A program made the translations under genes and the position numbers. The notes below the pieces were generated by a model, which saw only the letters and a program-made list of their open reading frames with translations, did no database searches and was not told where the DNA came from. A stretch of 64,000 nt of DNA from Heliocidaris erythrogramma (lineage: Eukaryota; Echinodermata; Echinoidea; Camarodonta; Echinometridae): the NCBI GenBank assembly GCA_025617745.1, contig CM046857.1, positions 25,575,761-25,639,760 on the forward strand, given 5' to 3'. Below, in pieces: positions 5,091-63,784 of the stretch. The stretch's first letter is position 1. Each line of letters opens with the position of its first letter.

Positions 5091-5494
5091 AGGCTTATAT
5101 CATTGGCCTGGAGACTAGATGGCGACCTGGATGGTAACTCGAATCTCTGATGGTTGCGGAGACGTCTCCTGGAGACCAGCCGGGTCTCCGGGCAGTCGCG
5201 GGAAATTCAAAAACTTCATGTTCAAGTTTTTTTGAGACTTTTTCAAGTCTCCAGCGGGTCTCGGAGACGTCACGGAGACGTCGCGGATACTTCTCCCAAG
5301 TCGCGGACAAAACGTCTCCGAAACCTGCTGGAGACTGGAAAAGTCTTTAAAAATCGAACATGTTTCAGTTTCCTGCGACTCCTCGGAGACCCGGCTAGTC
5401 TCCGGGAAATGTCTCCGCAACCAGCGGAGACTCGAGTCGCCACCAGGTCGCCACCAGGTCGCCACCTAGTCTCCAGGCCAATGAGACAGGCCCT
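5091..5494. mobile_element. TTAA-target MITE with GGAGAC/GTCTCC word arrays
   Basis: The element is bounded by TTAA at 5087-5090 and TTAA at 5495-5498. Terminal inverted repeats include TCATTGGCCTGGAGACTAG and GGTGGCGACCTGG in both arms. The interior is rich in short words (GGAGACGTC, GTCTCCGG, GTCGCCACC) in both orientations, with GGTCGCCACCA tandemly repeated near the right arm. TTAA targets are typical of piggyBac-type transposases, but the tips are not a standard piggyBac sequence, so the superfamily is an inference. Non-coding. Confidence 0.75.
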
Positions 5495-5498
5495 TTAA

Positions 5499-6198
5499 TC
5501 CCCACTTCAAGGTGATTTTGCCATTGTCGCAAAGTGTTTCTCTCTTTTTGTACAGGGCAACAATAAGTACAAAATTGAAGATGGTCCAGCCCATTGGCAT
5601 GATTGTTTGGGAGTTTCCTCTTCGAGAAAGCAGATGGTGATGCCTATGTGAGTTCATGTTTCGCAGATCGGAAAAGTGCATAAATCTCAAATCAAATGAT
5701 GTATGCCAAAGAAAAAATGTGCCTTCATTTTTACAGTTTCATGAAACATTTATTTCTTTCATCCAATAAATTGTGAACCACTTGATTATCTAAAGGTAAC
5801 TTATCTATAGTGACCTTACAAATATATATCTAAAAAAAATTATCCAGTCACCTAAACACATAAAAAAGTTACTGTCCTTTTTGACTTTCCAAGATAACAT
5901 TCATTTTTCTTGGTATTGTTTTACCATACAAGTCATGCAGGTCGGAATGAACATCCGAATGTACTTGGATCAAGCCACCAACCGTGAGCCTCATGCTATG
6001 ATTATGAAAGAACGAGAAAATCTGGACTAGTCCTTTCTAGTAGTAGTAGGGGCATGCTGCCCTATGTGTTCTCTACCTAAAACAGTGGATATCTGCTTTA
6101 AGTTGACATACGTCTTGGATGTGAACTGTTGCTGAATGGGAGTGCAGCCGCACTGTTGTGTTTTTGCAGAAGTGTGTCTATAACCTTGGAAAGGATGG
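5499..6198. other. Intergenic, nothing recognised
   Basis: AT-rich DNA with no exon-like frame and no clear repeat ends. A (TAG)n stretch lies near 6040. Confidence 0.5.
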
Positions 6199-6206
6199 TA
6201 GCGGAC

Positions 6207-8018
6207 CCCGGCCCACCCCCCCCCCCCCCCCCCCCACTCGGAGGTCGAAGGGATCGCATGCGTGTTCCCAAAATCTCCGGTAAAGGGGTACTTTTTGGGC
6301 GACACAATCCGGCCCGCACTCTTAAAAAATGCGGGGTCGCATATTGCGTGGTCGAATTTATTCGACCACGTTTCGGGGTTGTTTTCGATCAATAATGCTC
6401 CCGCTGCATTAAAATGACCAGTTTTTGCGTGGTCATTTTGACCTTGCAAAAACTGGTCATTTTAATGCACTCTAAAAAAGGACTGGTCAAAAAATGTACC
6501 AATGCGATTGGTCAACACCATATGGGTTATTTCCAAAAAATATGTTGGTCACAATGTTCCAATTTCACTGGTTAATCACTAACCATTTGAAATATTGCTT
6601 ATTCATCAGCAAAGTATTGGTCCGACTTCTACTTGGTTAAACGTTGGGCCATTATCATGAATATTCATGATGTATCCTGAATACCCATGAGCAACCGTAA
6701 ACAACCAGAATTTATATATATAAATGACACTTGATTTTTAAGTTTTATGCAATGATTGCACTTTGAAATGTGATGAAAAATGTATGTATACTAATTATTA
6801 TGTTGTACATATTCAAACATGTAATTAGGTTTAAGATCTAAAAATCTACATTAGAAAATTAAATTAAAATCTTTAACCACTTTTAGCAAGCACTGCAATA
6901 CAGTCCCTATATAATAAAGTAAAGGTTTTCAGGATATATAGGTATAGGATAGGTATAGGATGTAGGACTATAATAGGAGTAGGGTTAAAGTAGGATGATA
7001 GGGGTATGATATGCTATACGATAGGAGAGGATAGGTTATAGGTCATAGTGAGCAAAATATACAAAATATGTTATGATATTACTTGACATTAGCTTCTTTT
7101 TTTTTAATCTTTGAAACGTGGATGGTACACGCGCATCCGGCAGAAGTATCAACCCCGTCCGACGGGAAATGACCACGTTGCGTGGTCGGAAGAAATGACC
7201 CCGTACGTTTTGACGGGGTTATAAGGTAATGATCATTAGTATGCGGGGTCAAATTATGCGGGGTCAAGTTATGCAGAAATGACCACGCAATCGTGGTTAA
7301 ATTTTGACCACATTCGGGGTCGAAATGTAACCACGCTATGTGGTTACTTTGGGTGACCCCGCATGGCGGGGTCAATGTGACCACGCACGGGGTTTGTGCA
7401 TAGTTGATCCCGCATGCGGGGTCATTTGTAACCCCGTTTGGGGTTATTTTTGACCACGCATTTTTAAGAGTGCGTGAATTGTAAAAAAAGGGGTGTTTTT
7501 TATCTTTCACCCGGAGATTTCATTAAAGAAGGGGGTGTTTTTCTTTCTCTCTCTCTCTCTTCGACACCTGAGAAATTAAAAAAGGGGGGTTATGAAATAT
7601 CTTGAAAAATTGATCAAATCCCAGGATCAAATTCCTGAAATTCCTGCTAGTTTTGATAGCTCATTCAGCCAGGATTATTTCATTTTGAAAAGTAGAAACA
7701 CTGGCCCCCAGTCCCACCCAGTCCTCCCTCGACTCGATATAGTACGGACTTTCCGAAATCTGTGACTAAGCAGGATAAGTAGTAACTTGGTGCCTGTCCT
7801 GAGATATAGGGTTGGAATGAGAGCTCACCTGAGATAGGGGGGGGGGGGTACATTGAGCAGTGTTCTGAATTTAGGGGGGTCTCCAAGGCAGGAAAAGCCC
7901 GCGCAAAGCCCGCGATAGGGGGGTTCAGAAATTTTGGCAGCCCTGAGATAGGGGGGTGCTTTCAAAGGGAGGGAACAAGCATACCCTAAATAATACTGAG
8001 TGGGGGAGGGGGGCCGGG
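6207..8018 (+). mobile_element. CCCGGCC-ended non-autonomous DNA transposon, 8-bp TSD (copy 1)
   Basis: A sister copy lies at 35635-36260. Both begin CCCG-(C)n-CACTCGGAGG, end ACTCAGT-complement then GGGCCGGG, and share the interior (CTCCGGTAAAGGGGTA, GACACCTGAGAAATT, GGAAAAGCCCGCGCAAAG). This copy is flanked by TAGCGGAC at 6199-6206 and 8019-8026, an 8-bp target duplication. After removing the nested element at 6317-7472 it is about 650 bp, matching the 626-bp sister. No transposase is present. An 8-bp duplication fits hAT-like enzymes, but the tips are unusual, so the superfamily is left open. Confidence 0.85.
6317..7472. mobile_element. CACTCTTA-ended element nested in the CCCGGCC element
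   Basis: Comparison with the uninterrupted sister at 35737 (GGCCCGTGAATTG) gives the insertion precisely: CG, CACTCTTAAAAAATGCGGGG, then the interior, then GCATTTTTAAGAGTG, CG. The tips form inverted repeats and a 2-bp CG target duplication is the simplest reading. The interior has repeated short words, chiefly GACCACGC and GACCCCGC, in both orientations near both ends, and ACTGGTCA words more centrally. No transposase frame is seen. CACT-type tips with a short duplication resemble animal EnSpm/CACTA elements; this assignment is inference. Confidence 0.75.
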
Positions 8019-26070: not shown

Positions 26071-26281
26071 TATATATGTATATATACATGCATATATATG
26101 TGTAAATTCAACAATTCCATTCAACAATTCCATTCCTGCAAAATGAAATAATCAGTTACGAATTAGGCCCTGCTGCACCATTTTATTTTCATTACCCGAA
26201 CTCAAGATTGAATTCAAACCGAATGCCGGGTTCATAAAGGGTGATTTATTTGTCCGTTGTTTGTCTCTTTGTCTCTTTAAG

Positions 26282-26421
26282 CTCCCATTGCGGCTGCGTT
26301 GTTTAGCCGAAATGTCCATCCTCGCCTCCTGCTTGTCATTGCTACTACGATAGGAAATGGTGGGACAGTTCTCGCTTCTTTGGCCACTAGATACATTTGT
26401 TCATTGCCTTTGCGATATCCG
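26282..26421 (+). pseudogene. Transporter copy A exon 2 carrying the 4-bp deletion
   Basis: Begins after TTTAAG and ends before GTGAGC. Through PIAAALFSRNVHPRLLLVIA and NGGTVLASLAT it matches copy B. Then GCCACTAGATACATTTG replaces GCCACCAGCAAGATACAGTTG, four bases shorter, and the remaining ~30 bases are out of frame. Splice sites look intact. An assembly error would be the main alternative. Confidence 0.88.
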
Positions 26422-27324
26422 GTGAGCCATTTAGTAGTGTTATGGTTTATATAGAGTTCCATCATTATTTTGCAGTGACGATGACGTTTGTGTTCATATG
26501 GATACGAGTCACAAGTGACAATAAGGGGACACAGACATCATGGGGCACCTGCCCTACTTCATGAATGAAATGTGAATTTATATATGAAAATTGATTAGGC
26601 GGACGGTGACGGAAGGATCGTTTCATCTCTTTATCAAATTTTCTTCCCCCTCTTTTAATTTTTTTTCTCTATTTCCCTCTTTTTTCACCATTCCATTGCG
26701 GGACACGTGACCCCCGGCCTCTCCAGACCCCATTGTAACTAAGCTACTGCGAGTCGGGAACTGCATCAAATCTTCCAACATGCAGGGACCATGTCCTTCC
26801 TTGCTGCCTGAGAGAGGAAGTCTCGTTCGTATTTTGTTGTCTCTTGCGTATATTATTTTTTATAGAAACACGTAATCAGTCAGCCACAATGCACGACTTG
26901 TGTTAAAACAACAGGAAAAACTTCATTTCACATGGTGGAATAACAATTACGGTGTATTATTTGTTTGAAATAGCCGAATAGATTAAAATGACGATTAGTA
27001 TCACACTACAGTGTGAGTATATTGTTTTAAAAATTGTGGGATTAACAAAATATTATTAGCATGTATGGATAGAGTTTATATTCCTTTGTTGTTTGGCAAC
27101 ATTTGTTTCAATGTTGCTGTTACGGTTGAATTCACAACAGCCATTGTTTGAAAGATAGTCAAAACTCATTTGCGCTAAGTGGTATGATTACCTGCTGAAA
27201 CAGAGACAACATTCACACAAACAATGAACGTAAAGTTTATGCATCTGTTTAATCAAGACAATAAATATGAGAACCAATAAATAAATGAATAAATAAATAA
27301 AGCCAGAAGTCATAACATTCAGTG
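26422..27324. other. Intron 2 of copy A, first part
   Basis: Collinear with 50215-51162. In copy B a stretch here reads AGTGGCGTAGCTTGGGTCAT at 50295 and, about 250 bases on, the complementary-looking TTGTAACTAAGCTACTGC, suggesting an old hAT-like MITE whose left tip has been lost in copy A by a ~14-bp deletion. No exon seen. Confidence 0.5.
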
Positions 27325-27592: not shown

Positions 27593-27600
27593 GCATTAAC

Positions 27601-47700: not shown

Positions 47701-50700
47701 TGAATATGTATATGTGTCGGGGCGATGTGTACCTAGTCTTGGTTGAAGTTTCTCCCGCCCCGGCCGCGGGGGTCAGTGAAAATGTCGACCCTTGGGCACC
47801 GCCCCCCCCCCTCCCTTTCTCCAGTTCAGGCAAGGGGTTCTGTGATAACTCCTTGGTTCAGGTAAAAATTTTTAACGTATAAACAGTGCATGGATCATGT
47901 AGACAATACTCGGCTTAGCTATATTCCAGCTGTTGGGGGCACTGTTATCATGGGGGTAGGGGGAGGGGGAGGCGAGGGACCCTAAACCTAACCCTAATCC
48001 TAACTCTATTTCATGTTCATGAGCATCTGTCATTGTTATTCACGGTGGACCCGTTTAATGATCTCCCTCCATGTAATGGTCAGAGGGTAGTCCGTAGTCG
48101 TAGCAAGAGGGCAAACAAGAAATTAGCCCAGTTGGTCGTTCGACGAAACGATGATTAGATTAAATGTTAATTAGACCAGACGGCTATTAGACCAAATGAC
48201 AATTAGACCAAAGGTTATTAGACTAATTGTGTGTAGACTAAATGATGATAGACCAACGAGGTCAGACTAACTGACAAATGGACCAAATGATGTGTTGACC
48301 AAATGAATGTTAGACCAATTTGGTTTAGACCATTTGATGATTAGACGAAATGGCAATTAAACAAATTGATAATGGATCAAATGGTTATTAGACCAAAATG
48401 TTGGAGACAAAATGGCTATTAGACGAATTGACAATAGACCAAATGGTAATTAGACGAAATGACAATTAGACCAATGGTAATTGGAAATGATGATTAGACA
48501 AATTGGTTATTAGACCAACTGATAATAGACCGAATGATGTTAGACCAACTGGCTGTAGACCAAGTGGCAATGAACCCTTCAATTTTAAACAACATGCAGC
48601 GTGCGCCGTATAGTGTACTTTTGTGTTATATTTGATTATCACTAGATTGAAACGATAACATGCAGGTTTCAGGCATTTCTCAACCATTAATATTTTCATC
48701 ATTAAAAATCGCGTAAATGAAAAAGTAAAAATTACGTTCAAATTCAATTTATATGAAGCGCCCTCTTGAGACTGATAAAATAAATTGCTATTCTATGTAG
48801 AGATCGATGGATTATGTGAATTTTCAGCTCCTCAACAACCCCAAACCCCCCCCCCCGCCCCCCCCCCCCGTCTCTGTAAACTGATCATAAAAAGGGAAAC
48901 CACTAGTAAACCACTAGTTAAATGAATTTTTACATTTGCAGTTGACATGTTTTGACATTTGTGGTAAAGGGTTTTTCGACATTTTAGGGATTTTAATGTA
49001 AGGAAAACCTCACACACACGCACACACACATACATATCATCATAACCTATCTTACAGAAGTGCATTATGGAAGCAATGAGTTTTTACATTTGCGGTCGAC
49101 ATTTGACATTTGTGGTAAAAATGGAAATTTTTACATTTGTAGGCGACATGTTTTGACATTTGTGGTTAAACAGATTTTTACATTTGTGGGCGAATTATAT
49201 TACATTTGTGGTTATTTTTACACTTGTGGTTGACATGTTATGACATTTGTGGTTATTTTGACATTTGCGGGTGCAATGTTTTTACATTTGTGGTTATTTT
49301 TACATTTGTAGGCTCTACAGGGGCACTGGCTTGTTTTCCCCCTCTGTAGATCCGCCGCTGTTTATGTGATGTTTCAAATTGCTGTATCTATTTTAGGATC
49401 TCTATAAACTGATAAAATAGAAGATGTTGGATTAATATATGAAGATGCTACAGCCAATGAATACTTTTGTAAAGCCAAAAGGACCTGATTAATGATGTAA
49501 TCACCTGTGTGTATTATCCTGACATTCTGTTTTGCAGAGAAATTTTATTCTGTAAATAGGTTTTTAGTGAAACGGTCACAATATACAGTACATCATTTGA
49601 GTTTTATGACTTGAATGTAAATTGTGTATTTTCTAAATAATTCAGATCAAATTTTCTAGCTTTGATCTTGTGCAAGAAATACACTTTAACATTTACCAAA
49701 TCAAACCAAAACATAAGATTATTTTAGTCAATTACAACAGTCAATTAATACACTACTTTAATAATATTAGCTCCTTAAACCCTCCAAATTCGCTCTGACC
49801 ATGAACCCTTTAGTTTTAGCTCCCGAGGCCCTCCAAATGGGATTTTCCCAACTAATTTTTAGCTCTTCAGACCCTCAAAATTAGCTCTGCCCATGAGCCC
49901 TTTCGCTCCTTAGATCCTCAAAAATGAGCTTCCTCAATTAACCATTTAGCTCCTTAGCCCCCTGTTTTGAGATTGGCAGAGGCACACCCATATCCTAAAA
50001 AAGGTTGGGGGGGGGGGGCATGTGCAGGCGGCGTAAATTTGTCCGTTGTTTGTATCTTTGTCTCTTTAAGCTCCCATTGCGGCTGCGTTGTTAAGCCGAA
50101 ATGTCCATCCTCGCCTCCTGCTTGTAATTGCTACTACGATAGGAAATGGTGGAACAGTTCTCGCTTCTTTGGCCACCAGCAAGATACAGTTGTTCATTGC
50201 CTTTGCGATATCCGGTGAGCCATTTAGTAGTGTTATGGTTTATATAGAGTTCCATCATTATTTTGCAGTGACGATTGTGTTCATATGGATAAGAGTCACA
50301 AGTGGCGTAGCTTGGGTCATGACAGTAAGGGGGCACAGACATCATAGGGGCCACCTGTCCTGCTTCATGAATGAAATGTGAATTTATAATATAAGAAAAT
50401 TGATTTGGCTGACGGTGACAGAGGGATCGTTTCATCTCTTTATCAAATTTTCTTCCCCCTCTTTTAAAAAAAATTCTCTATTTCCCCCTTTTTTCACCAT
50501 TCGATTGCGGGACACGTGACCCCCGGCCCCTCCAGGCCCCATTGTAACTAAGCTACTGCGAGTCTGGAACTGTATAAGGAATTCAAATTTTCCAACATGC
50601 AGGGACCATGTCCTTCCTTGCTGCCTGAGAGAGGCAGTCTCGTTCGTATTTTGTTTCTTGCGTATATTATTTTTTTTTAAACACGTAATCATCCAGCCAT

Positions 50701-53700
50701 AATGCACGACTTGTGTTAGAATAACAGGAAATCTCCATTTCACATGGTGGAATAACAATTACGGTGTATTAACTTTGTTTTGAAATAGCCGAATAGATTA
50801 AAATGACGATCAGTATCACACTACAGTGTGAGTCTTTAAAAGATGTTACACTTTTTAAATTGAGTATTGTTTTATAAATTGTGGGATTAACAAAATATCT
50901 TTAGCATGTATGGATAGAGTTTATATTCCTTTGTTGGTTGGCAACATTTGTTTCAACGGTGCTGTTACGGTTGAGTGCACAACAGCCATTGTTTGAAAGA
51001 TAGTCAAAACGCATTTGCGCCAAGTGGTATGATTACCTGCTGAAACAGAGACAACATTCACACAATGAACGTAAAGTTTATGCATATGTTTAATCAAGAC
51101 AATAAATATGGGAACCGATAAATAAATGAATAAATAAATAAAGCCAGAAGTCATAACATTCAGTGATCTTCTCTGAAAAGTCCTTTTTCATAGTCATTTT
51201 GGGCACTTGGACATAGCTTTCAATCTTCCACATGGCGTCAGTTTCGATGCATTTCTGAGCTCGATGGAACATCGCTGGCATTGGACTTACGAAGTGCCTG
51301 CCTGATTGCAAGTCATCCAGGTCTGCAGGTTGGCTGCTGTACACCTTGGATTTCAGGAACCCCCAGACGAAGAAGTCCATGGGTGTTAAGTCTGGAGATC
51401 TTGGGGGTCATTCCACAGGAGCCATTTACCATTAGTTTCAAATTCAAATTCAAATTCATATTCAAATTCAATTTGGTTTTATTTGATCTCGACTAAAAGT
51501 CCCAAGACTAAAGATGCGAGTTTACAAACATGTCATACATTCAATTATTATTATAAGAAACAACAACAAAAGCCCCTTGCCTGATTTGGAATAACTCAAT
51601 TATCATTACAAGAGGCCTTTTTGCTCATTGTGCAGTCTAATCCAAATCAGACAAGGCGTTGTTGATGTTGGCGCAAATGGGTTTTCACCTAGACACATTA
51701 AATGATTCGTATCTATTAAATTCATTACTGATTCCCCACAAGTGTATTAAATCTAACCATGGTGCAAGAAATAAGATATTTCTATTATATTTTTAATATA
51801 AGCATTTTAAAAAGTGTAACATTTTTTCTGACTCGCACTGCATAATTCCTGTTTAATAATACTCGAATATTTTGATTTATTGTTGTTGATATATTACAGG
51901 AACTGGATATAACATTGTACTTTTAACATGTGCGACTGCATTAGGAAGATATGCAGGTGAAAGCTTCAACGTCCTTTACAGCCTTTCCACTTGTGGAAAC
52001 TCCGTGGGAATGGTTCTACTCCCGTTTCTCGCGGAAGAGCTGCTTGATGTGTACGGATGGCGAGGTGTTCTTCTGATCCTAAGTGGTCTCCTGTCAAACG
52101 CGATACCTTGTGCCATGGCCATTCGTATAACCCCAGAAGGTCTTGCAGGAACAGATGATAAAGAATTGCAGGGAAGTGTCCCGATGGACTATGTTTCTAA
52201 TTCGGTAGTTCCAGAAGGAGTTTCGGATGCAGGATTCGACATTTTCCATGCAACTTCGGACAATGTCGATAATGATAGGGTCAAAGACCTTGATAGGGCA
52301 CCACTCTTGACTCTTTCAAAGGAACATGGTGGAACGACGGCCGATTCGGATCCTTCATTTGGCCAACATATCAATGAACTTGCTCACAAGAACCATCTTG
52401 ATTACATAATCGACATCCCTGGGGAGATTTCATTGTGGTTTCGAAGCACAAACTTCTATACCGACCCAATCTCTACTTTCATTTTCTTGTCCAATACTGT
52501 ACTATACTTTGTTAACACCGGATGGCATTCGTTTCTTATTCCACATGCGCTGCAACGAGGAATCTCACAACGGAATACAATCGTTATTGCTTTCGTAGCT
52601 GCTATTGGTAACCTATCTATTCGACTTGTCATCGCTTTCTTAACTCACAGGCTTGTTGATCCTATCAGTATGCATCTAGTTTTGACAATCTTCAATATTC
52701 TATCGTTGGCGTGTGATGCATTTACCCCCAACTTTTACGTCATGCTGGTGACTTCATGGTGTTCAGCTGCTGCTATTCCCGGAAGAGCCGTTCTAGCACC
52801 TTTAGCGATCAGAGACAGAGTTTCCGACAAAAACTTTGCAATGGCGATGAGTGTGGATACTGTCTTGGTTGATTGCGGAATTTTCCTGGGTGGATATATT
52901 TCAGGTGTGAAATGCATAATGGTAATATGCTGAACAGAAATGAAATGAGTCAAAGGATGAGAGGGGGGGGGGGGGTCAAGGGGCCTCGCGGGATCATTTT
53001 AAAAGAGAAGGGATAAGGCTGTCGGCAAAAAATGTCGAGAAGAAAGAACTTTCAAACATGCCAAAATACACTTTGCTACCGATTAGAAAGCACATTCGCG
53101 GTGACGTGGAAACTAACCATGCTAACGGGGACATTCCAAATGAAAAAATATTTTTTCGTATCTAGAAAGATTAAGGGAAATTAGATTGAGACTGTTTCTG
53201 GTTTTGCCAAATGATTTATTGCACATAATGTATGCGTCAATTACGGAGTGTCCCCATCTTATAAAATTAAAAAGAAATATTTCTGAGAAAAATTAAATTG
53301 CACTTTGCTTAATAAGAGTTTAATTATACGATTAAAATGTTTCTGCATCTGTACATCTTGGATAACAGCGGTGTACGATGTGAAATATTCAAAGTTTCTC
53401 TTTTAAACGTTGGATTTCTTGTCTTCGAGTTATCTCGAATCTCGAATGAGGGTGATAATCATGACAGTGATAAATACCAACGGAAATCAGCTCAATGAAA
53501 ACATTCATTACACTTCTAATAAGTATGAATTAATAATTGTTTGTTATTTCTCCCCAACTGCGCCCCGCCTTTTCTCTTTTTTCTACCTTTCTGTCTCTCG
53601 TTTCCTCCTCCTATCCCGCCTTCTCTTTTCACCACAGGTCTTATTGCTGCCAGTTTTTCATCATATGACGCGACATTCAAACTTCTCGCTGCAGTCGATG

Positions 53701-53753
53701 TACTCACATTTATCTTTATGTTACTGCCAAAATTATTTAAGAAACCCAATTAG
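44587..53753 (+). CDS. SLC16/monocarboxylate-transporter-like MFS transporter, copy B (four exons)
   Basis: Exons 44587-44785, 50071-50214, 51900-52904 and 53638-53753 join with GT-AG introns, all phase 1, to 1464 nt (487 residues plus stop), a normal length for the family. Predicted helices: 1 at FPIVLLNFMVCCSMVGLIKA, 2 at TDLGTTLGLFYAGGLVM, 3 at RLLLVIATTIGNGGTVLASL, 4 at LFIAFAISGTGYNIVLLTC, 5-6 around VYGWRGVLLILSGLLSNAIP, an acidic ~110-residue cytoplasmic loop, then helices 7-12 ending FIFMLLPKLFKKPN. Central loop length and the YGWRG motif point to the monocarboxylate-transporter branch: plasma-membrane uptake or export of small organic anions or related solutes. Substrate is not predictable; the TM1 family motif is weak. 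B differs from A by an Asp in helix 11 (VDCGIF versus VACGIF). The start is the first ATG in a conserved 5' context. A 3.7-kb foldback sits in intron 1. Confidence 0.9.
45800..46060 (+). repeat. Left outer arm: CCACAAATGT word array
   Basis: About 14 imperfect copies of ACCACAAATGTMAAAA, spaced 15-22 bases. Inverted copy at 49070-49320 with the same order of variants. Confidence 0.85.
46090..46545 (+). repeat. Left inner arm: TTGGTCTAAT word array
   Basis: About 25 imperfect copies of the 10-18-bp word (AYTTSGTCTAATARCC). Spacing is irregular, unlike a simple microsatellite. Confidence 0.85.
48130..48575 (-). repeat. Right inner arm: ATTAGACCAA word array
   Basis: Inverted relative to 46090-46545; words such as ATTAGACCAAATGG and GACAATTAGACC. 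Confidence 0.85.
49070..49320 (-). repeat. Right outer arm: ACATTTGTGG word array
   Basis: Reverse complement of the left outer arm, with matching variant blocks such as TACATTTGTAGGCGACATG. Confidence 0.85.
49780..49965. repeat. ~75-bp minisatellite, about three units
   Basis: Recurring TTTAGCTCC(T)TMA..CCCTC(C)AAA..GAGCT blocks at 49785, 49830, 49875 and 49920. Diverged. Lies in copy B intron 1 before exon 2. Non-coding. Confidence 0.55.
50071..50214 (+). CDS. Copy B exon 2
   Basis: Follows a TCTTTGTCTCTTTAAG acceptor and precedes GTGAGC. 144 nt, phase 1 at both sides, so it is skippable in frame. Encodes TPIAAALLSRNVHP, helix 3 and the start of helix 4. Intact here, unlike copy A. Confidence 0.9.
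50215..51162. other. Intron 2 of copy B, first part
   Basis: Collinear with copy A intron 2. Contains a possible old hAT-like MITE (about 50294-50564; AGTGGCGTAGCTTGGGTCAT and TAACTAAGCTACTGC ends). No exon. Confidence 0.5.
51163..51425 (-). pseudogene. Tc1/mariner-superfamily transposase C-terminal fragment (in copy B intron 2)
   Basis: Minus strand reads DPPRSPDLTPMDFFVWGF then LKSKVYSSQPADLDDL and ends near MWKIESYVQVPKMTMKK. The SPDLTPxDFF block contains the third catalytic acid. The N-terminal DNA-binding region and first two catalytic acids are absent. Less damaged than the homologous fragment in copy A (27325-27592). Confidence 0.8.
51900..52904 (+). CDS. Copy B exon 3
   Basis: 1005 nt. 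Acceptor ATATTACAG, donor G-GTGTGA (a weak donor, conserved in copy A). Encodes helices 4-11 and the central loop. If the donor is not used the frame runs on a few residues to a TGA at 52931-52933, which would yield a protein lacking helix 12. Confidence 0.88.
53638..53753 (+). CDS. Copy B exon 4
   Basis: Acceptor CTTTTCACCACAG after a pyrimidine tract. Encodes LIAASFSSYDATFKLLAAVD and the final helix, ending KKPN and TAG. Identical protein in copy A. Confidence 0.88.
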
Positions 53754-53884
53754 CCTTACTTATAGGGAGATAAATTCTTATTTTTACTAAATTAGTATAA
53801 ACATTGTCACAAAAAAAAATGCCTTTGAATTACTTTAATGTTATTCCTTTAAACAGCGAATTAATCATGTGATTATTTGACATA

Positions 53885-54048
53885 CAGCCCTGGAAAAAAA
53901 TATTATAAAAATGATTTGTCTTTGCATTTCATTGAATGAATACCAAATTCCAGTAATTATACCTTGCTTTTATGGTATTTTATTTCCTTCTCACCACAAA
54001 ACTAACTCTATCTAAACCATTCTTGGTCTGATAATTTTACCATGGCTG
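53885..54048. mobile_element. TA-flanked mariner-type MITE, unit B
   Basis: Same insertion as 29946-30111: tips CAGCCCTGGAAAAAAATATT and CAGCCATGGTAAAATTATCA, TA on both sides. Confidence 0.83.
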
Positions 54049-54072
54049 TAATTATACAGGCCTAATTATGCA

Positions 54073-54078
54073 AATAAA
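54073..54078 (+). terminator. Candidate poly(A) signal, copy B
   Basis: AATAAA about 320 bp after the stop, at the same place as 30136-30141 in copy A. Position alone supports it. Confidence 0.3.
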
Positions 54079-54084
54079 TTGATA

Positions 54085-54690
54085 CTTTAAATGTATGTAT
54101 GTATTTATTCATTGAACTTCAATATTTTGTTCGAATATAACAGCAATAATCAGAATAATAATGATAATAATAACAGTAAAAAAGGAATAATATATCGCAT
54201 TGGAAGCATAAACAAAAAAAACAAAAAAAATACTCATAATTGATCAACTAGACATGCTCTTTCATGAAATATATAAATTATCAGATTATGTACAAATAGT
54301 GTAAGGTGATAAGAAAAAGAGCCATTAAAAGAATTATAAACATATACTTATACATAGTATAGATATGCCTAATAATAAACAATTTAAAGGTTACCACTTT
54401 GATCAATAGTATATCGCAAAATTTGGCAAATTCTTGAATGAGAGCGTCTTCTTTGAGTGGTATTATGAATATGAATCTCTCCAAACTGTTTGTTTTCAAA
54501 GTTATCATTGAGTGTCTTTAGATTATTAAAAAACAGTTCTTTCCTTATTCTAAATTCATCACACTGTATGATATAATGGAATTCATCTCCTACTGTTTGC
54601 ATACTACATTCTTCACAAAAAAGTATATTCACTGGTATTTTGTGAGGGCGATGATATCTTTCCTTTTCAACGGGTATGTTATGTGAACTT
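54085..54690 (-). pseudogene. LINE 3' fragment, unit B
   Basis: Minus strand 54632-54384 reads LFCEECSMQTVGDEFHYIIQ; matches 30150-30760. No catalytic RT region remains. Confidence 0.75.
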
Positions 54691-54907
54691 TAAGGTGAAG
54701 TTTACAGATGTTTGCAGATGTAAATGTAATTTTTTCAATCTCGTGACAGCATGCGTGCAATTTACGCAATGAAAAAGGTTTCATTGGGGAGTGGGTCGCG
54801 GTGGTCGAAAACTAATTTTATTTATATGTGAATAGTAATGGAAGTTTGAAAGTACATCTGATGCAGTAGAAGAAACAGGCTCAAACAGGACACGGAGAAG
54901 TAATCCA

Positions 54908-55053
54908 GGGCCCTCTTGCATAAAGAGTTGTAATTAATGCAACTCAAAAAATTAAACGCAACTCGATTTTCAACCAATCAGGCTTGCGTATTTGGGACTT
55001 GCGTTTAATTTATTGAGTTGCGTTTAATCGCAACTTTTTATGCAAAAGGGCCC
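54908..55053. mobile_element. GGGCCC-TTGCATAAA MITE, unit B
   Basis: Matches 30983-31128 with two or three base changes. Confidence 0.85.
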
Positions 55054-55805
55054 AGTTATGTTTTAAACTAATAAACGAATAAATCTGCACAACTTACCAA
55101 ATTATCTTTAATAATGATAGTTATGATAATTATAGTAATGATGATGATAATAAAATAAGGAATAATAATAAATAATAATAATAATATTGATGATAATAAG
55201 TATTGGATTTATATAGCGCCTTTGCCAGAGGATACAAGGCGCTGTCCTTTGAAATTATATAAAATTATATAAACAAGGAATTCAGTTCCAAAAAAAGTGG
55301 GAAAAGAATTGAAAGGATTTGAAGCTGTTTACGGGGTTTGGGAATGAGAAAGAGAATGAGAAGAGAAGGAGTAAATCGAAGTGAAAATGGTGTTCTCTGT
55401 TGGTAAAATAGTGAGGAGAGGAATTGGTTGACAAAGAATTGAAAGTTTGAGCAAGTATGTCTATTAACAATGGGGTAGCACGGGTTTGGTTTTTGACAGA
55501 TTACTCATTTCATTCTGCACTCTTAGAAGAGTTGGGCAAAATAATTGGTAATTGAAATGCTTTGGTAGTTGGGCAACTTGCCCAACATTCCAGCTAGTTC
55601 GTGTTCACCAATCACATTATATTATTATTTAATAATTACCCAATTGGTAGTTTACCAACTGTTGGGTAAGCCAACAGAAGAACCAACTTTGTTTCCACTC
55701 TCATAATTTCACTTCTCTCAAATTTGCCCAACTCTCAAAATGCCCATATTTTACAGACGTGTATCACGTGTCTGGGGACACGTCACGTCTTTCGGATGGG
55801 ACACG

Positions 55806-55891
55806 TCACCATCCGAAAGACGTGACTCAGTCTCGAACCTGGTTTATAACTTCCACTGGTAGCTGGATTACAGGCGCACGCCACAACGCCA
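55806..55891 (-). mobile_element. 7SL-like SINE head, copy 3 (internally deleted)
   Basis: TGTGGCGTGCGCCTGTAATC and CCAGCTACCAGTGG are intact on the minus strand; about 15 bases before the GGTTCGAGAC block are missing. Preceded by a palindromic GTCTTTCGGATGGGACACGT region. Confidence 0.55.
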
Positions 55892-56264
55892 AGTTATAAC
55901 GCCCAGTCACGCCCAGTCGCGCCCAGCAAGCTCTTATAATCCTTTTATAATTTGTTATGCATTAGGTGACAGTTAGTAAATCTGGCCCACCCCAAACCGT
56001 GCGCAACTAAAAGTTCATGAATATTCATATTTAACTTTACCATCTGTTGGTAAATACATGCCCATTTATTAGGTGAATATAACTGCCACAAATTGGTCAA
56101 GCTTGATTTAGCTATGTTGGTAAAAAGTTTACCAAGTTATTTTCAATTCGCCCAACATTTCAAGAGTGTGCGACTGTAGGGCTGTGTCTGAGCAATTGTT
56201 GAGCAATGTTTGCCCAGTGTTAGAGATTTGGGGAAAACTGCCCAATTACAATTGGACAAATATT

Positions 56265-56291
56265 GGGTTAGGGTTAGGGTTAGGGTTAGGG
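56265..56291. repeat. Interstitial telomeric repeat
   Basis: GGGTTA then four TTAGGG units, 27 bp, followed by CCGC. Unit A has ATATTAGGCAAACATTG at the same place, so about 31 bp were gained in B. Confidence 0.92.
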
Positions 56292-56367
56292 CCGCAAACA
56301 TTGTCCAACAGTTGGTGGGTTGACGACTGCCGCAATGTTTTTTTTTTTTTTTTGCAGTGTAACTTAA

Positions 56368-57003
56368 AGGGAAATTAACCTCAGCGTATGAATTAGCTTA
56401 TTTTGAATGGTGTAGTATATGCCTCTTATTTGATACATGCAATTTCATGTAAAAACACAGGATATAGATATAAATCACTATTTTCCAGCCAAGTTATTGT
56501 CTGCTAGCAATAATAAGGGGGCTGCCATTACTTTATGTGTACACGAAAATATTTTTCATCCCAAGTAATATTTCCTTCATCGTTAACTTGTAATTGATTT
56601 TTAGAGGACAAATATATATTAGATATAGTCACATATTCTGAAATGTAAGTTTAGTTTTATATATTTTTTAAAAGGTCTTAATTTGTTCATAAAAATATAC
56701 TTTCTGTACGTGGAGACGGAGAATTGACGTCAAGGACGGAGACAATCGTAACAATACCAAAACAAAGCGAGGAATCTGCATTACAGGATGGCTATTAGAA
56801 CTCATGGGTCGTCAATTATCTAGGCCCATGGCCAATAACAATCGTAATAAAATCAGAACAAAGCGACGTATCTGTTGTAAAGGTAGGCTATTATCAATGC
56901 ATATGGTACCTAATGATCCGTGTCATGCACAAAATGGCAGCCTCCATGGAAAGACGTAGCAGACAATACCGCATCTAGAATATCATGTGGGGTTAATTGT
57001 CCT
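56368..57003. mobile_element. TTAA-target MITE (636 bp), private to unit B
   Basis: Flanked by TTAA at 56364-56367 and 57004-57007; unit A has the empty site AACTTAAATTAATATTT. Tips AGGGAAATTAACCTC and AGGACAATTAACCCC. No coding frame. piggyBac-like targeting is inferred from TTAA only. Confidence 0.85.
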
Positions 57004-57354
57004 TTAAATTAATATTTTCCTGAATCTTGTGCAAAATTTACCGAAATGTTAGGTAAACTTCTGTATGGCAAAATTTCCCTCATAGATTTCGACCAACCTT
57101 TCTTTGTCCAACTATTTTCCCCCAACATGAAAGAGGAACTCATTCCCAATTATCCAACTACGAGGCAAATATTCCCAACCTAGATTGAACCAATGCTGTT
57201 GGTAAATGGGCTATGTGCCCAACAGTTATCTAAATGTATTTGCAACAAATTGGTAAAAGCCTTAGGCGATCAGTTGGTTAAAAAATGCTCATAATTGGGC
57301 ATTTTTTTTACAACCATGATTACCCAACATAATTTAACCAACATTTTAAGAGTG

Positions 57355-59163
57355 TGGAAACGTTGGAATTTGCCCATGCTTACTGACACCACCAAACAAA
57401 CACCCACCGTAGTCAAACCTGGAGAACACAAGTGCTCTTACAATATTATGACAAATGTATGTTGATCCAAGCCTGTAATATGATTTAAATTAGAAATTTG
57501 CCAATTTACAATCGTTAGCATAAATCATTAAAAACAATAAAAAAAAATCACAATTTTCTTTGAAATTCATCAGATTTCATCACCTCAATGCACTAATATG
57601 ATGTAAAATGGTTATGATATGTTTCCTTATCATAACGGCAACAAAATAACACTGGAATGACTATTTATTCTGGATAATTTGTATATATTTTATAATGAAT
57701 AGTAAAACATTAATTTTGTCATTTTGAACATTTGAATATATGAAAACATACACGGCATATTTCTCATAAATTAACACATACAAATCATGAGCAGAAAAGA
57801 TATACACAAAGAGGATACAGTGAAGTGCTTACTACATGTGTCAAAAGCAAAATAATCAGAAACATGCCAATTAATTTGCATATTTTATAGGAAAACATAC
57901 AATATACAATATCTCATTTCTATGTTTCTATGGCATAAGGATTCCTGTTCCTCTAGATTTTCATAATGGAACACAGTTCTGTGTCACTATAAGTCATCAA
58001 CAAATTGAAATTTTACATTTCTAACTATGAATATATTGATCAATCAAATAATACATATTATATAATCTTCAATTCGAACAATTTTGAGAAATTTTATTTT
58101 GATATATGGAATGGTAATTCTTGACCTAATAAACGTGTAACATTTTGCAACTGTTATGCATGCAAAAAGTGGCAAAGAACAATGTAGACATCAAACAATT
58201 CATTTTGATTTAGTGATATTAAAATGAAATATGTATAGTTTTCCCCTCTCATCTGAACATTTAAAAAAAATACACAGAGATAATAGCACGTCGTACCTTT
58301 AGAATAAAATGTACATTGTTTTACTATACACTACTAGTATTTTTATCTCATAAGTTTGGATTTTTTTGCAGATCAGAGTAAAATTTTGCTAACATGAGGA
58401 AATGGGAAAATGGAAAAATTAAGTTACAAGTAAGCAAATAATACAAATATAATATATACGTATTATTTGCTATTATAAAAGCTATGCGTTTGTCATTAAA
58501 TAAAAGCACAAAACATGATGTAAAAGAGAAAGAGTTACATGTCATGGAAGTTATAAAGCAGTAAAACTATGTTTTTTGCCACCTCTCTGAACATGTGGCT
58601 GGAAGAACCCCTTTAGACGTTTTCTATTTTTCGTTCTGACAACTGAATTAGATTAAAAAAAATAAAGAATTATATGAATAAAGTAATGACATTCTATACA
58701 TGACTACTCTGGAAATATCTTACTTCAATATTTGTTCATTTCCTTCACAAAAACTTGAATAATACATGGTCACGGTGTATTAGTAAAAGAAATACATGGG
58801 AATTTCCAGTGAATGCACTTGAATTCCTTTTTCATTCTCTGTCTCCTTCATTTTATGTTGTCTGTGATCGATCTCCCTGCCGGGCCCCACCACCAACTAT
58901 TGTATGTACGTTCCAAAACACCTATCACGACGGCAAAGCATTCAGTATATTCAATGAATTCATATCTAACTATTCAAACATTATTGTTCGGAAATCTTCA
59001 TTGCCCTTTTGACATGTTCACTTGTTCGACAATACCAAAGACTATAAATACGAAGAATGGTTAGATCCGAATTTAACCCGTCCGTATTGTGGTCGCTCGA
59101 AAGAGTAAACTTCTACCGCGATTTAGTGGACATTAACACAGAAAAGCTGCCTCAAAAAGACTG
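57355..59163. other. Shared intergenic DNA of unit B, no gene
   Basis: Collinear with 33527-34782 and 37059-37870 of unit A; contains the empty site of the unit A hAT-like insertion at about 58595. Nothing coding recognised. Confidence 0.5.
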
Positions 59164-59166
59164 TTA

Positions 59167-61036
59167 AACCTAGTTCACACCAACGGCGCTTTGATGGCGC
59201 TTTAAAGCGGCGTGCAAAGCGGCACCAAAGCGTAACAAAGCTTGATTAAAGCGTCAGGGTCGTAATAGATCGTGGGAAAGCTTGGAGCAAAGCGGGACAT
59301 TCGGCAAGAGCGCCAAAATTTTTTAAACTGTTTAAAAATTTTGGGCGCTCTGTCACGAATTGAATAAAGCGCCGAGAGCGTATCAAAGCTTAACAAAGCG
59401 TAACAAAGCTCAGCAAAGCTTGGCTCAAAGCGTAGGAAAGCTCAACAGAGCTTGGTTCAAAGCGGGGACCCCAGTCTTCACGGTCTGTCACCACTTGACA
59501 CGCTTTGTTAAGATGTCTCAAGCTTTGCTACGATCTGGCATGAAGATCTGACACGAGGTCAGACGATTTCATCAAGATCTGACACGCTTTGTTACGCTTT
59601 GTTACGCTTTCATGAAGGACTTTCACGCTTTCCCACAAATTGAGACGCTTTGATCAAGGATTGACACACTTTGTTAGGCTTTGTTATGTTTAGCAAGCTT
59701 CATAACGCTCTCTCATGCTCTCTCACGCTCTCCTACGATACCCACGCTCTGTCTCCATCCCTATAAATAGCGCTGCGACTTGAGTACCACTCATTGCATT
59801 GTTTCCAAACGAAGAAGTATCACTATCAGTGATAATATTAAATGTTTACTTTGATAACTTTGCATGTATGATTTGTAAAATGTTTACTGTGATAATTTTC
59901 CATGTATGATTTGTAAACAGTGATAATATTTATTTTTTTGTTTGGTTAAGTTTGATGCTTTTTGTACATATTGATAACATGTTTCTTAATAATAAAAGAG
60001 AATATGTTACATTTAAAAGAAATGCCTTTTATTTTCAAATAGAATAAAAAAATACAAGATAGATATTAATTAAAAATTAATTGAACAATACAAAATACAC
60101 AAAATCCCCCCACCCCCACACAAAAAAAAATTCAAAAGAAATAAAAGAAATGAAAATATAAAACATATAATAAAAAAGAGAAATAGAATAAAAAAAATTT
60201 ATGGAAAAACTTTGGGGAAACCTTAGTATACTGAGTTTTTTCACAAAGTTTTTCTATTTATTTTTTTATTCTATTTCTCCGTTTTATTATGCTATGTGTT
60301 ACATTTTTATTTCTTTTATTACATTTTCTTGGTTACAATAAGGTTTATTTATCTCACATATAAAATTTAGTATTCAAATTAATGAGAAAATCAATTTATT
60401 AATCAATTTCACAAAATTGCGTATTTTAAAGTTCATTTATGGCACATATCTAAATTTTCAATTCTATAACTTGATTTCTTTAAATTTTCAATCCTAATTT
60501 ACAATAACAATATTATCTGATTTTTCATTGGAAAAAAAATTAATAAAGTTTTTATTTGAATTAATTACAAGCAGATGAAATATTTATAATAATAACAACA
60601 ATAACATGAATAATAATCATAGCATCTTCCAAAAATTTTTTGTGTGGATCTGCTGCATCTTGATATAGGCTCTGGATCAATGAAATCGGCGATCTCGACA
60701 TTTTCCAATGCGCAACAGAGCTTGATAATCGTATCAGAGTGTGGTTTAAAGCGTCATAATCGCATCAAAGCGTATAAAGCGTAATAAAGCTTATCAAAGC
60801 TTATCAAAGCGTGATTTAAAGCGTAACAAAGCCTGATCAAATCGGGATCAAAGCGTGAGGAACCGTAACAAGTCGGGAAATAATTCATCCCCCAAAGCGG
60901 CAACCAATTCGTATCAGAGCTTATCAGAGCGTAACATTACTTAGGAGATCGTGTATTTTTGGAAAAGTAAACAAAAATGACGGCAATTTGCTCGCCGATC
61001 TAAAGCGTGGCATTCGCCGTTGGTGTGAACTAGGCA
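59167..61036. mobile_element. Harbinger-like non-autonomous element (1870 bp), private to unit B
   Basis: Tips share CCTAGTTCACACCAACGGCG (one or two differing bases outside), and TTA flanks both sides (59164-59166, 61037-61039); unit A has the empty site GACTGTTACAGACAC. A 3-bp TWA duplication is the hallmark of PIF/Harbinger. Ends are packed with AAAGCGTAACAAAGCTT words; in the left part orientation flips at about 59500, so 59170-59760 is itself a foldback. The middle is AT-rich with a TATAAATA and poly(A)-like signal. No transposase was recognised. Confidence 0.87.
59762..59769 (+). promoter_or_regulatory. TATA-box-like site inside the Harbinger-like element
   Basis: TATAAATA, with an initiator-like CCACTCATTG about 25 bases later and AATAAAAGAG at 59991. 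It could drive a short transcript from the element's middle. Prediction from spacing only. Confidence 0.35.
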
Positions 61037-62695
61037 TTACAGACACACAGACGAACTAAATTAGCAAAATTATAGTAAGGATATACTTATGCTTCTTTGA
61101 TTGATTGCTTTTATTTCTGCGTGCTAATAATCAATAAAATATTTTTCTACATAAGAATCAAATAAGTAAAAAATCATGTATTATAACCGTTCACGTCAAA
61201 CTAAGGAAAAGAAGGAAGGGGGAAAATGAGTTTTAGAAAAATATACTGTAATTATATACATATATTGTATGTACATGGATATAAGTTTTTCTTTTCTTTT
61301 TTTAAAGAAAAATAAGCCATTCTTATTGGGAAAAAAGCTAGAATAAGATTATTGGATTTTTATTAGGTTATCGGCCTATACTGTTGTTATATTAATTATT
61401 GCTGTTATTGCTCCTTTGTTATTATTGTTATCAGGCTTATTATTATCAATATTCATCACCATGCCTATATATAGCCCACAATTACTTGTTTCTAACTCTG
61501 AACATCAAATTTTTGCAAAGAAATTCGGTGATCCCCCATTAACATTATTATGTTTATCAACGTACATAAATGGCTGGTAAGATGGCATGTCAAAAAGTGG
61601 TTGGGGAAAGTGTGAAGTACACATTGTGTGGGCGGAGTTGATAATTCTGGGGCACGTAATACTTTATATTAACAGTTTGTTGAAAAAAAAAGTCATTCAC
61701 GAATTTGTATTTCTTATAAATAATCAAAGTAAATTATGTCGCGAAAATAGTCAACTCTAAATAAGTGGCAAATAAAACCAACTTTAGAAGAAGAAGAAGA
61801 AGACTGGCAGAATGAATTAGTGGAAATGGAAATATACTGATATAATAAAAACCCTTTAAAAGTACACAAACACAAGCTTACTTCAGCCTGGGGGTAACAC
61901 TTTGAATCTTAAACGTCATTTGCGTTCAGAGCACAGTTACTCGATCTTATGAATTTCTTATGTCAGTTTTTATATATTAACTTTGCTCTACCTAAGAAGT
62001 ATAGGGAACAGATTCTGGATTCATATTTTAAAAAATCATCATTTGGAATTATTTCGGATGTAAAAATTATATATTCGCCTACATAATCAGATATTGTGCA
62101 GGAGTAGATGCATAGACGTATAGCATGTATACAGGCACAGAGTTGTCAGGGGCTGACCTTTTTTTCACTGATAATTAAATTTCAATTTTAACATGATTGC
62201 AAAGACTTACAGAAAAAATCGACATAAAGGGCTGGTCAGACTTGACCGATAAAGAAAACGATATCCCTACACTCTAAAAAGTGAAGTGCTGAAAAACGAG
62301 TGTTAATTGGAAGTTTGCACTTGACATACTATTTCTAACACCTCACGTACCATTTGCGTCTGGGAGATGATAAGGTGCAGAAAATTGAGTGCTAAAAGTA
62401 AGTGCTGAATGTTAGGACGCTCGTTTTACACTTCAAGTACTGACCAACGTCCCGTGATTTTAGCACCTGCACAATTCTGTGCTAATAAGCGATTTCGTAA
62501 TTAGGATTTGCGCATGAGCAGATAAAGGTCATTTGACATAAACTGGCATGTTCGTTTAAAATTCACTGAGATAATCATCGACTGTGTAATGATTATTCAT
62601 ATATTCATTTAATTATACTTTTCATTAAATCCACTGAAAAGCAACAAAGTGTTCATTGATGGTTGGTATTTGACAGTCTGCCAAATGATAGCAAA
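61037..62695. other. Shared intergenic DNA of unit B, no gene
   Basis: Collinear with 37874-39532 at high identity; (GAA)n shorter here (61789-61801) than in A. No exon. Confidence 0.55.
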
Positions 62696-62738
62696 CTAAA
62701 GTTACCTCAGTGGTCAACTCTCAATCGCGGCGCCGCTA
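62696..62738. repeat. Boundary repeat X, copy 3 (left part)
   Basis: TAAAGTTACCTCAGTGGTCA and TCGCGGCGCCGCTA, interrupted by the 62739-63784 insertion; it resumes as GGGGCGATTGCATG at 63787. Confidence 0.75.
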
Positions 62739-63784
62739 AAGCCTTAGTCACAATTGCCCGCACGTTTTTTCAGGACGCACGGTTTCTACGTTTTTTCGAA
62801 CTCGGAAAAAAACGTAGAGGTCCGTGGCAGTTCGCACAGGGAGTATAAGTAGTACCGTGGTTGCGCGGGCTTCATACGCAAGGAGCACGTATGTCTTGCA
62901 GTTAACGTGCGGCACGCAAGGCGTCAGTACGCCTCAGTCGGAAATTTAATCGTGAGTGTAACGTGCAAATGCCGTGCGATTTGTATGTGCTCCGTGCAGA
63001 TTACGCAAGGTTCACTTCCGTTAATCGTACGTGTTGCAAGAACGTACGGGCCTGTTGCGCCACATTCACGCCGGTAGTAGGGTGAAAGCAAGATGAACGT
63101 ACTAAAACCGTACGGCGACAGTACGGTCGGCGGTGGATTTCCACCCTCTTAGCCCCACGTGTTCTCTTCTGACCCCTGCCTCTTGCTCCAGGCATTGTGA
63201 TTCAAGAGTCAGTCCTGATTTAGAAAACGTCGGACCTCCTGAAGACACTGAAAATTCAGAGCGAAAGTGTGAGAACTCTGTTGCCCGCACGGTTTTTATA
63301 CCGGCCCCAAATTGGCCGTACGTTGCACGCACGTGTTTGCATGCGCCGTGGGTGGGACACACGAAGCACGCAAGTCACATGCACGTTTTCAGCTATGATT
63401 GGATACCCGCGTAACACGCACGTGGCCCGCAAGGAGCGCATGCGCACTTGCGTGACCATCACATGCGTGCCTCGTGAGTGCTGCCTGCGGTATTCGCGCG
63501 GTTTTTACCCCCAGTAAACGTGCGACCCACCCACGCTATTCGCACTACCCTCTTGCGGAGACTGTGAGTGTTCATTACGTCCTGTCCACGGGCTGCCTGT
63601 CGTAGCGAGAACGCAGAAAATAATGTGCATACACATTTTCGGCCTACGGCTTTAGCGTGCTGTCTACGAACTCGAAATTCCGTACGAACAACCTGCGTCC
63701 CCCTTGCGTTTCCCCAAATTTCTGCCCGTAAACCACCCGTAAACCACCCGTACAAGCCCGTACGGGCAGTTGTGACTAAGGCTT
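62739..63784. mobile_element. GC-rich TA-flanked element with CGTACG words, private to unit B
   Basis: Tips AAGCCTTAGTCACAATTGCC and, reverse-complemented right, AAGCCTTAGTCACAACTGCC, with TA on each side. Unit A has the unbroken site CGCCGCTAAGGGGCG, differing by one base, so the duplication could be TA or TWA. Interior is GC-rich, full of CGTACGG, GCACGC and ACGCACGTG words in both orientations; overlapping frames (for example 63133-63414 and 63568-63927) arise from low stop density and show no domain. Superfamily uncertain, Harbinger- or mariner-like. Confidence 0.8.

Follow-up and report, generated by a model that had tools for sequence, protein, structure and literature searches.

Short-word arrays in DNA transposons of a Heliocidaris erythrogramma chromosome stretch: real arrays without one shared design

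Short words repeated near the ends of DNA transposons are a described feature of several superfamilies. CACTA elements are reported to combine conserved tips with divergent subterminal words that are bound by divergent proteins (PMC2613891), the wider CACTA/EnSpm clade being characterized by CAC..GTG tips and a target site duplication (TSD) of 2-5 bp, and hAT elements by a usual TSD of 8 bp (PMC12730594); for Harbinger3_DR, a 9-bp subterminal motif is reported as the binding site of its Myb-like protein (PMC9710019); and the STR1/STR2 quasi-palindrome of the hAT element Hermes, bound by two BED domains, is described as a solved case of short subterminal repeats in both orientations (PMC10368747). 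Here we analyze a stretch of 64,000 nucleotides of the Heliocidaris erythrogramma genome (C5:25575761-25639760, hereafter the window), for which a preliminary description had proposed that many unrelated element families carry private short words toward both ends, either through convergent subterminal binding of transposases or through one process that amplifies words in non-autonomous elements. The word arrays are real and are a known kind of feature, partly misassigned in that first reading; they do not constitute one shared design, and what else had suggested such a design goes back to nesting or duplication of elements.

Convergent subterminal binding is the explanation that we favor for these arrays and, in our estimate, a moderately probable one; the sequence comparisons support it for the PIF/Harbinger-type element E5, and we infer it for the elements E2, E3 and E4a. 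The elements would represent separate families of cut-and-paste DNA transposons, present here as non-autonomous copies, and in these four the words near the ends most likely bind an element-encoded DNA-binding protein, for which a Myb/MADF-like partner (PIF/Harbinger), a TNPA-like protein (CACTA-type) or a domain of the transposase itself are candidates. Several bound proteins may help to pair the two ends for cutting, and the privacy of each word would follow if the site co-evolves with its own protein and the tip is read by a more conserved catalytic domain. The remaining elements E1 and E6, whose words run throughout, would need a looser version of this binding model or another cause. The groupings into families lean in part on general transposon knowledge.

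Word statistics and layouts

Part of the window is a tandem duplicated block, with copy A at 26248-39790 and copy B from 50037 to the window end at 64000, the long pieces of which are 88.7-98.6% alike (some short pieces inside E3 just 64-84%), so that an insertion present in one block copy leaves its empty site visible in the other. Relatives of the elements were sought in 1,064,227,859 bases (26 contigs), with 40 candidates scored per family from longer first-look lists for E1, E2, E3 and E4. The comparison of at least 20 genomic copies per family that the preliminary description had proposed was reached for E5 (20 loci), the copies examined being fewer for E1 (19 places), E6 (15), E2 (4), E3 (4, plus 12 right ends) and E4a (5, plus 20 flanks).

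When one mismatch was allowed, each tract held a top 8-base and a top 9-base word above the maximum of 25 dinucleotide shuffles. The words of interest, counted at no more than one mismatch and compared with 200 shuffles, were likewise in excess: CGGAGAC (GGAGAC plus one base) occurs 17 times in E1 against a shuffle maximum of 7, GACCACGC 15 times in E2 against 3, GTTGGGTAA 13 times in the E3 copy E3A and 11 times in E3B against 4 in either case, CCACAAATGT 23 times and GGTCTAAT 36 times in the E4 tract against 3 and 9, CAAAGCGT 32 times in E5 against 8, and CGTACGG, a near-palindromic word of which one site may count twice, 23 times in E6 against 14. Exact words give a more uneven picture, with exact GTTGGGTAA occurring four times in E3A and twice in E3B. 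The top exact 7-mers of E3A (6) and E3B (7) were not above their shuffle maxima (6 and 8), and background windows equalled the tract in 19 of 92 cases for E3A, 15 of 88 for E3B, 14 of 173 for E6, 10 of 154 for E2, 4 of 497 for E1, none of 36 for E4 and none of 86 for E5. By exact words E4 and E5 stand out strongly, E1 and E2 fairly well, and E3 and E6 weakly; the arrays are real even where the listed exact words are few, as in E3 and E6. Private repeated words thus stand in every tract at one mismatch, and the claim weakens for exact words in E3 and E6.

The placement of the words separates the elements further. Where chance would put half of the words in the outer quarters, these hold 13/15 and 14/15 in E2, 13/13 in E3A, 11/11 and 8/11 in E3B, 23/23 (CCACAAATGT) and 24/36 (GGTCTAAT) in E4, and 28/32 in E5, as compared with 9/17 in E1 and 11/23 in E6. 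The proposed concentration toward both ends consequently holds for E2, E3, E4a and E5, in which the words are mostly subterminal, and does not hold for E1 and E6, which they fill. No single layout emerges: we find a palindrome, dyads, tandem repeats within a terminal inverted repeat (TIR), asymmetric blocks and a diffuse scatter, and the presence of words in both orientations is partly trivial, since E1 is a palindrome and the E4a arms are inverted copies of each other.

Short dyads (stem of at least 7, loop of at most 10, 60 shuffles) bear on a possible origin of the words in selection for foldback or hairpin structure, as in small RNA production or cruciforms, instead of in protein binding. 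They exceed the shuffle maximum in E1 (5; mean 0.35, maximum 3), E2 (8; 0.93, 4) and E3A (8; 1.12, 4), and seven of the eight convergent dyads of E2, read and chosen by eye, pair like words (CCCCG/CGGGG, CCACG/CGTGG), E1 being itself a near-whole palindrome. These counts would suit a foldback origin; however, dyads stay within the shuffle range in E6 (4, maximum 5), E3B (6, maximum 6), E4 (4, maximum 6) and E5 (3, maximum 5), several of the eight stems of E3A lack its word, and dyads are equally expected of dimeric binding sites such as the reported STR1/STR2 of Hermes (PMC10368747). We consider selection for foldback structure highly improbable as the source of the words.

E5, a PIF/Harbinger-type element with coding relatives

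E5 (59167-61036) is a non-autonomous element of PIF/Harbinger type flanked by the TSD TTA (59164-59166 and 61037-61039), and its insertion is absent from block copy A, where the empty site near 37875 shows the target TTA. Its words, AAAGCG/CAAAGC, are arranged in blocks: the left array (59167-59770) carries a plus-strand and then a minus-strand block and is followed by TATAAATA, and the right array (60740-61036) is on the plus strand only. The genome search returned 27 first-look candidates, from which 20 loci were fetched. A left end was recognized in 18 of these, and all 18 have 6-9 plus-strand CAAAGCGT-like words in their first 250 bases; the minus-strand block follows in all but L020, displaced inward in L026 and in L027, where it lies at 750-1250. 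The right plus-strand block was reached in seven loci (L011, L012, L014, L015, L017, L018 and L027), 2.3-3.7 kb from the left end, and the interior there is nearly free of words, as it is in the window copy. Five of the 20 loci have both ends found, with exact duplications in L012 (TCA), L014 (TTA), L018 (TAA) and L027 (TAA) and the pair TTA/TAA in L011; together with the window TTA and its empty site, these are 3-bp duplications of TWA type, with the exception of the TCA of L012.

Some of these copies are coding. DDE_Tnp_4 (PF13359) was recognized in four of five protein pieces from E5 loci, with E-values of 3e-25 to 8e-28, one each from L012, L017, L018 and L027, all four of which are among the loci whose right block was reached. 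A Myb/SANT-like MADF piece above the Pfam cut-off (E-value 9.1e-7) is present in copy L016, and matches in L021 (0.0035) and L022 (0.062) fall below that cut-off; the MADF piece is on the plus strand, about 600-800 bases inside the left end and a few hundred bases beyond the left array. The recurrence of the same arrays in coding copies makes E5 the best-supported case of putative subterminal binding. Its resemblance to PIF/Harbinger elements with a Myb/MADF partner extends to the 3-bp TWA-type duplication, the subterminal words, the copies with DDE_Tnp_4 and another copy with a MADF piece; it differs in having about 30 words (at no more than one mismatch) in large asymmetric blocks, as opposed to the one 9-bp motif described for Harbinger3_DR.

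A TATA box adjoins the left array on its inner side, and proteins bound just upstream of it may also control the element's own promoter. The same adjacency would suit a different function, namely that the arrays are inhibitory sites which hold activity down; subterminal sites of piggyBat are reported to restrict activity, and the authors suggest that this is possibly widespread (PMC11707139). Array-bearing copies belong, however, to families with many alike copies (first-look counts of 494 for E2, 349 for E6, 194 for E3 and 27 for E5), so that the arrays did not stop their spread, and we regard inhibition as a very unlikely main role.

Nested, CACTC-tipped and word-filled elements

The tract at 45682-49360, which had been read as one element with TTTATG at its tips, is two elements. 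The outer one is a hAT-like miniature inverted-repeat transposable element (MITE) with tips CAGGGGCGGATCC..GATCCGCCGCTG, whose CAG-type tip we take to be a hAT mark; it is interrupted by E4a (45805-49319), which has tips TGTAGAGCC..GGCTCTACA and the TSD GGGGC (45800-45804 and 49320-49324). A genome search with 45683-46090 as query returned 2931 first-look candidates, among which the two arms of a copy count separately. Among the 40 scored, 39 (all but the window; two of them, C4:35201459 and C4:35204543, being opposite arms of a single copy) start 105-150 bases into the query, past the CAGGGGCGGATCC tip, and besides the window that tip was found only at C10:10507622-10508227 (L079). There an uninterrupted MITE of 162 bases carries an 8-bp TSD, CACTCCAA, as is usual in hAT elements, the CCACAAATGT array lies outside the MITE, and the MITE copy reads GAGGGGGCAC, an empty site, at the point where the window reads GGGGC, element, GGGGC. 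The window copy of the MITE shows only the six matching bases TTTATG on both sides. The separation of tip and array, the empty site and the matches that start past the tip together assign the array to E4a, as its own long TIR, and rule out a single element with TTTATG tips. As in hAT elements such as Hermes, short repeats in both orientations lie near the ends here and the outer MITE is hAT-like; the difference is that the word array is no part of that MITE.

The left arm of E4a (45813-46043) is a tandem array of 11 CCACAAATGT copies at no more than one mismatch, all on the plus strand, and the right arm (49081-49313) is the same array inverted, with 12 copies, all on the minus strand, an orientation pattern that follows from one arm being an inverted copy of the other (278 columns, 88% identity). 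Within the array, conservation is higher in word columns than in the spacers (0.986 versus 0.955; none of 233 circular shifts as large, eight arms). Further in, GGTCTAAT forms arrays with a 16-base period on the plus strand at 46091-46545 and in the opposite orientation, minus, at 48139-48571; collinearity between the inner arms is only weak (the score is reached by 7 of 200 unit shuffles), and presence and count of the word vary between genome copies: L078 has 35 minus-strand matches, confined to one side, L080 has 8 within its first kilobase and L082 has 18, the L079 stretch ending too early to judge.

It is here that slippage or unequal exchange has most to offer, as a process that would amplify words in non-autonomous elements without any binding function, inverted arms arising by inverted duplication or being kept alike by gene conversion. 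The 16-base period of GGTCTAAT, its varying number and side (L078, L080, L081, L082) and the 88% identity of the outer arms are what such a process would leave, and Galileo TIRs are reported to lengthen by internal tandem repeats (PMC4168063). The words of E2, E3 and E5, on the other hand, do not form simple tandem arrays; their places agree exactly or nearly so among the copies read, the interiors have almost none of them, and coding copies of E5 carry them too. Slippage may thus be the origin of the GGTCTAAT array, and as an account of the arrays at large we find it unlikely; the single word-amplifying process that had been envisaged fails as a general account, since layouts differ and word positions recur between copies, and a general process of this kind is neither supported nor needed.

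In its affinities E4a is ambiguous. Duplications of 5 bases, GGGGC in the window and GGGGT in L078, flank the two copies that were read at both ends, and among 23 flank pentamers (24 were read, that of L089 being dropped as the same as that of L087) 93 of 115 positions are G or C (81%), often in long G runs, versus 37% in the window and at most 61 of 115 in 5000 random draws from it. Ginger elements are described with TGTNR tips, a 4-bp CCGG/CCGT target in Ginger1 and, in Ginger2, an AT-rich target with a 4-bp TSD, or 5 bp in TDD-4/-5 (PMC2836005); compared by tips and target, E4a resembles them in its TGTAG..CTACA tip, which fits TGTNR, its long TIR and its short TSD, and departs from both Ginger1 and Ginger2 in its 5-bp, G/C-rich target. 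Galileo (P superfamily) shares the tandem repeats inside long TIRs and differs in a repeat unit of about 140 bp and in its tips and TSD length, as described (PMC4168063). IS481EU is reported from parabasalids, its duplications being around 4, 15 or 25 bp, or in one copy 5 bp (PMC10045372), and is on this description an unlikely assignment. One could speculate, with a good deal of doubt, that E4a stands for a DNA transposon group not yet described. The long TIR of this group would consist, from the very tip onward, of an array of one 10-base word, with words more conserved than spacers; its members would insert into G/C-rich targets of five bases (often G runs), duplicating 5 bp, and their end would be recognized through the array and not through a unique terminal sequence.

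The families E2, E3 and E7 have CACTCT..AGAGTG tips in common and differ in their words (GACCMCG, GTTGGGYAA and AAGTGCT, respectively). E2 (6317-7472) has CACTCTT..AAGAGTG tips, the TSD CG and GACCMCGC words mostly in convergent dyads in the outer quarters, and a repeat copy without E2 at 35640-36251 provides its empty site, target CG; its CAC..GTG tips and 2-bp TSD agree with the CACTA/EnSpm-like (CMC) clade. E2 gave 494 first-look candidates; the 40 of these that were scored, the window among them, agree at 98-100% across at least 400 of the 404 query bases. Of four extra copies fetched, three show both ends, and each of these carries 17-18 words, 1-2 of which fall in the middle half. The duplications read CG in the window and TA in L075 and L077, that of L076 is not exact, and the right end was not reached in L074. 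The E2 interior (6385-6720) includes a second CACTC-type start at 6468 with TTGGTCA words, and a piece at 1500-2560 of L013 is related to that interior and has a common 5' flank, suggestive of an older composite.

E3A (31752-33526) has tips CACTCTTA..TAAGAGTG, the TSD TG and GTTGGGYAA words in both orientations in its outer quarters. E3B (55518-57354), which had been counted as a separate case, is the same insertion in the other block copy: the common flanks and the tandem block identify one insertion duplicated with the block and rule out two independent GTTGGGTAA elements. E3B is internally altered, with an extra right end at 56168 and a 639-base insertion; the latter (56376-57014) occurs in E3B only, is flanked by TTAA-like sequence and by eye has no word array, and a telomere-like GGGTTA run of 4.5 units at 56265-56291 was likewise not seen in E3A. 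E3 gave 194 first-look candidates, of which 40 were scored, those outside the window being 90-95% alike. In L104-L106, whose left ends were not reached, the words, counted from the right end, take nearly matching positions, most of them in the first 600 bases or so and one, in L105, at 948; the other copies were read at their right flanks only. The tips are of CAC..GTG type and both block copies show TG/TG, again from one insertion; the right flanks of the 15 of 18 arms with a recognized end read TA in 10, TG in 2 (the window copies of the one insertion), CA in 2 and CG in 1, with L104 and L109 having the same flank.

E7 is a seventh family, with a CACTC tip, beyond those in the preliminary description. 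A fragment at 62270-62520 on the plus strand, found also at 39107 in the other block copy, has the tip CACTCTAAAAAGTG and the private word AAGTGCT, and a full copy of 541 bases lies in L021 (1700-2290), with AAGTGCT in both orientations and 15 times at no more than one mismatch (shuffle maximum 8). This L021 copy has CAC..GTG tips and the flanks TG on the left and TA on the right, which rule out an exact 2-bp duplication and give no exact TSD in the 2-5 bp range. E7 and the E2-related fragment were the yield of seeking E2, E3 and E4 in loci fetched for other families, the matches otherwise being mostly low-complexity DNA. The likeness of E2, E3 and E7 to CACTA/EnSpm (CMC) elements, whose subterminal repeats are bound by TNPA-like proteins, is judged from tips and TSD and draws on CAC..GTG tips, a private subterminal word per family in both orientations and the short TSD of E2 and E3; points of difference are the 2-bp length of that TSD, the frequent arrangement of words as dyads and the lack of an exact TSD for E7 in L021.

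E1 and E6 are filled with words. E1 (5026-5494) is non-autonomous, with AGGGCC..GGCCCT tips and the TSD TTA (5023-5025 and 5495-5497); its inner part (5087-5498) is palindromic almost throughout, at 74% over 434 columns, and GGAGAC/GTCTCC and GTCGC words run along its whole length. The search gave 89 first-look candidates, of which 40 were scored. TTA duplications are present in the window, L031 and L049, many other places being truncated, nested or lacking a clear pair; L031 fits TTA and not TTAA, so that the target TTAA and with it a piggyBac reading are set aside. GGAGAC is found in both orientations in and around the match at all 19 distinct places examined, and outside CpG the words are more conserved than the rest (0.924 versus 0.880; 5 of 398 shifts as large, 17 members), the shifts as large rising to 26 of 398 with CpG columns kept. 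E6 (62740-63783) has tips AGCCTTAGTCACAA..TTGTGACTAAGGCT and GC-rich words, CGTACGG/CGCACGT, spread over the whole element; its target, given earlier as TA, is better read as a TWA-type duplication, TAA on the left (62737-62739) and TTA on the right (63784-63786), and the empty site at 39576 in block copy A reads CTAAG. Of 349 first-look candidates 15 loci were examined, 11 with both ends found and 10 usable, L065 and L066 having the same left flank; six of the ten pairs are exact (TAA/TAA or TTA/TTA) and four, window included, are TAA/TTA. In the non-exact pairs (window, L062, L067 and L068) TAA is always the left flank and TTA the right one. Going by these TSDs, which are less clean than that of E5, PIF/Harbinger would be possible for E6 and E1, with words throughout the element as the difference.

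Elsewhere in the window, the duplicated block carries an open reading frame of 347 amino acids twice (27988 and 51890), by eye resembling a membrane transporter, together with shared transposon insertions, and its two copies (26248-39790 and 50037-64000) constitute a natural set of empty sites. A tandem repeat of 155 bases, 2.9 copies, lies at 125-582.

Weighing of subterminal binding and its significance

Several observations weigh against subterminal binding. The words of E1 and E6 are not subterminal, and no GGTCTAAT match stands in the left arm of L078 or, on the strand of the array, in the first kilobase of L081. Conservation of words does not stand out from that of spacers in E3 (0.973 versus 0.980; 275 of 324 shifts as large in 18 arms), where six word sites were recognized in the consensus and the copies are so similar that power is low, nor in E5 (0.975 versus 0.971 in 16 sequences, L020, L026 and L027 left out), where the two values are indistinguishable since the copies are about 97% alike and power is again low; absent in both families, a general signal of word over spacer conservation was dropped. 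Common word positions are, moreover, to be expected from descent alone in copies 90-99% identical. A partner protein was found only for E5, coding relatives not having been sought for E1, E2, E3, E4a, E6 and E7. No single E5 copy is confirmed with both DDE_Tnp_4 and MADF: the right end of L016 was not reached, and in L027, which has the transposase, a piece resembling by eye the start of the L021 MADF open reading frame gave no Pfam match. Extra Hermes transposases bound further inside the ends are, in addition, argued to be unlikely to support transposition in cells (PMC10368747). This Hermes result and the two E5 domains not confirmed in one copy have lowered our confidence to the moderate level given at the outset. 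Convergent subterminal binding nevertheless remains the preferred reading, with support from E5 and in agreement with E2, E3 and E4a; it does not extend to E1 and E6, and the many unrelated families of the preliminary description shrink to two groups defined by tips and TSD plus one element, of no assigned superfamily, inside a hAT-like MITE.

These findings call for caution in that arrays and tips read from raw sequence can belong to different, nested elements. E4a is the loose end of most interest, and the presence of the same arrays in coding and non-coding copies makes E5 directly testable. If the arrays are binding sites, one genome offers families with common tips and different private words, notably E2, E3 and E7, and would thereby provide a natural series on how the recognition of transposon ends diverges while catalysis stays fixed.

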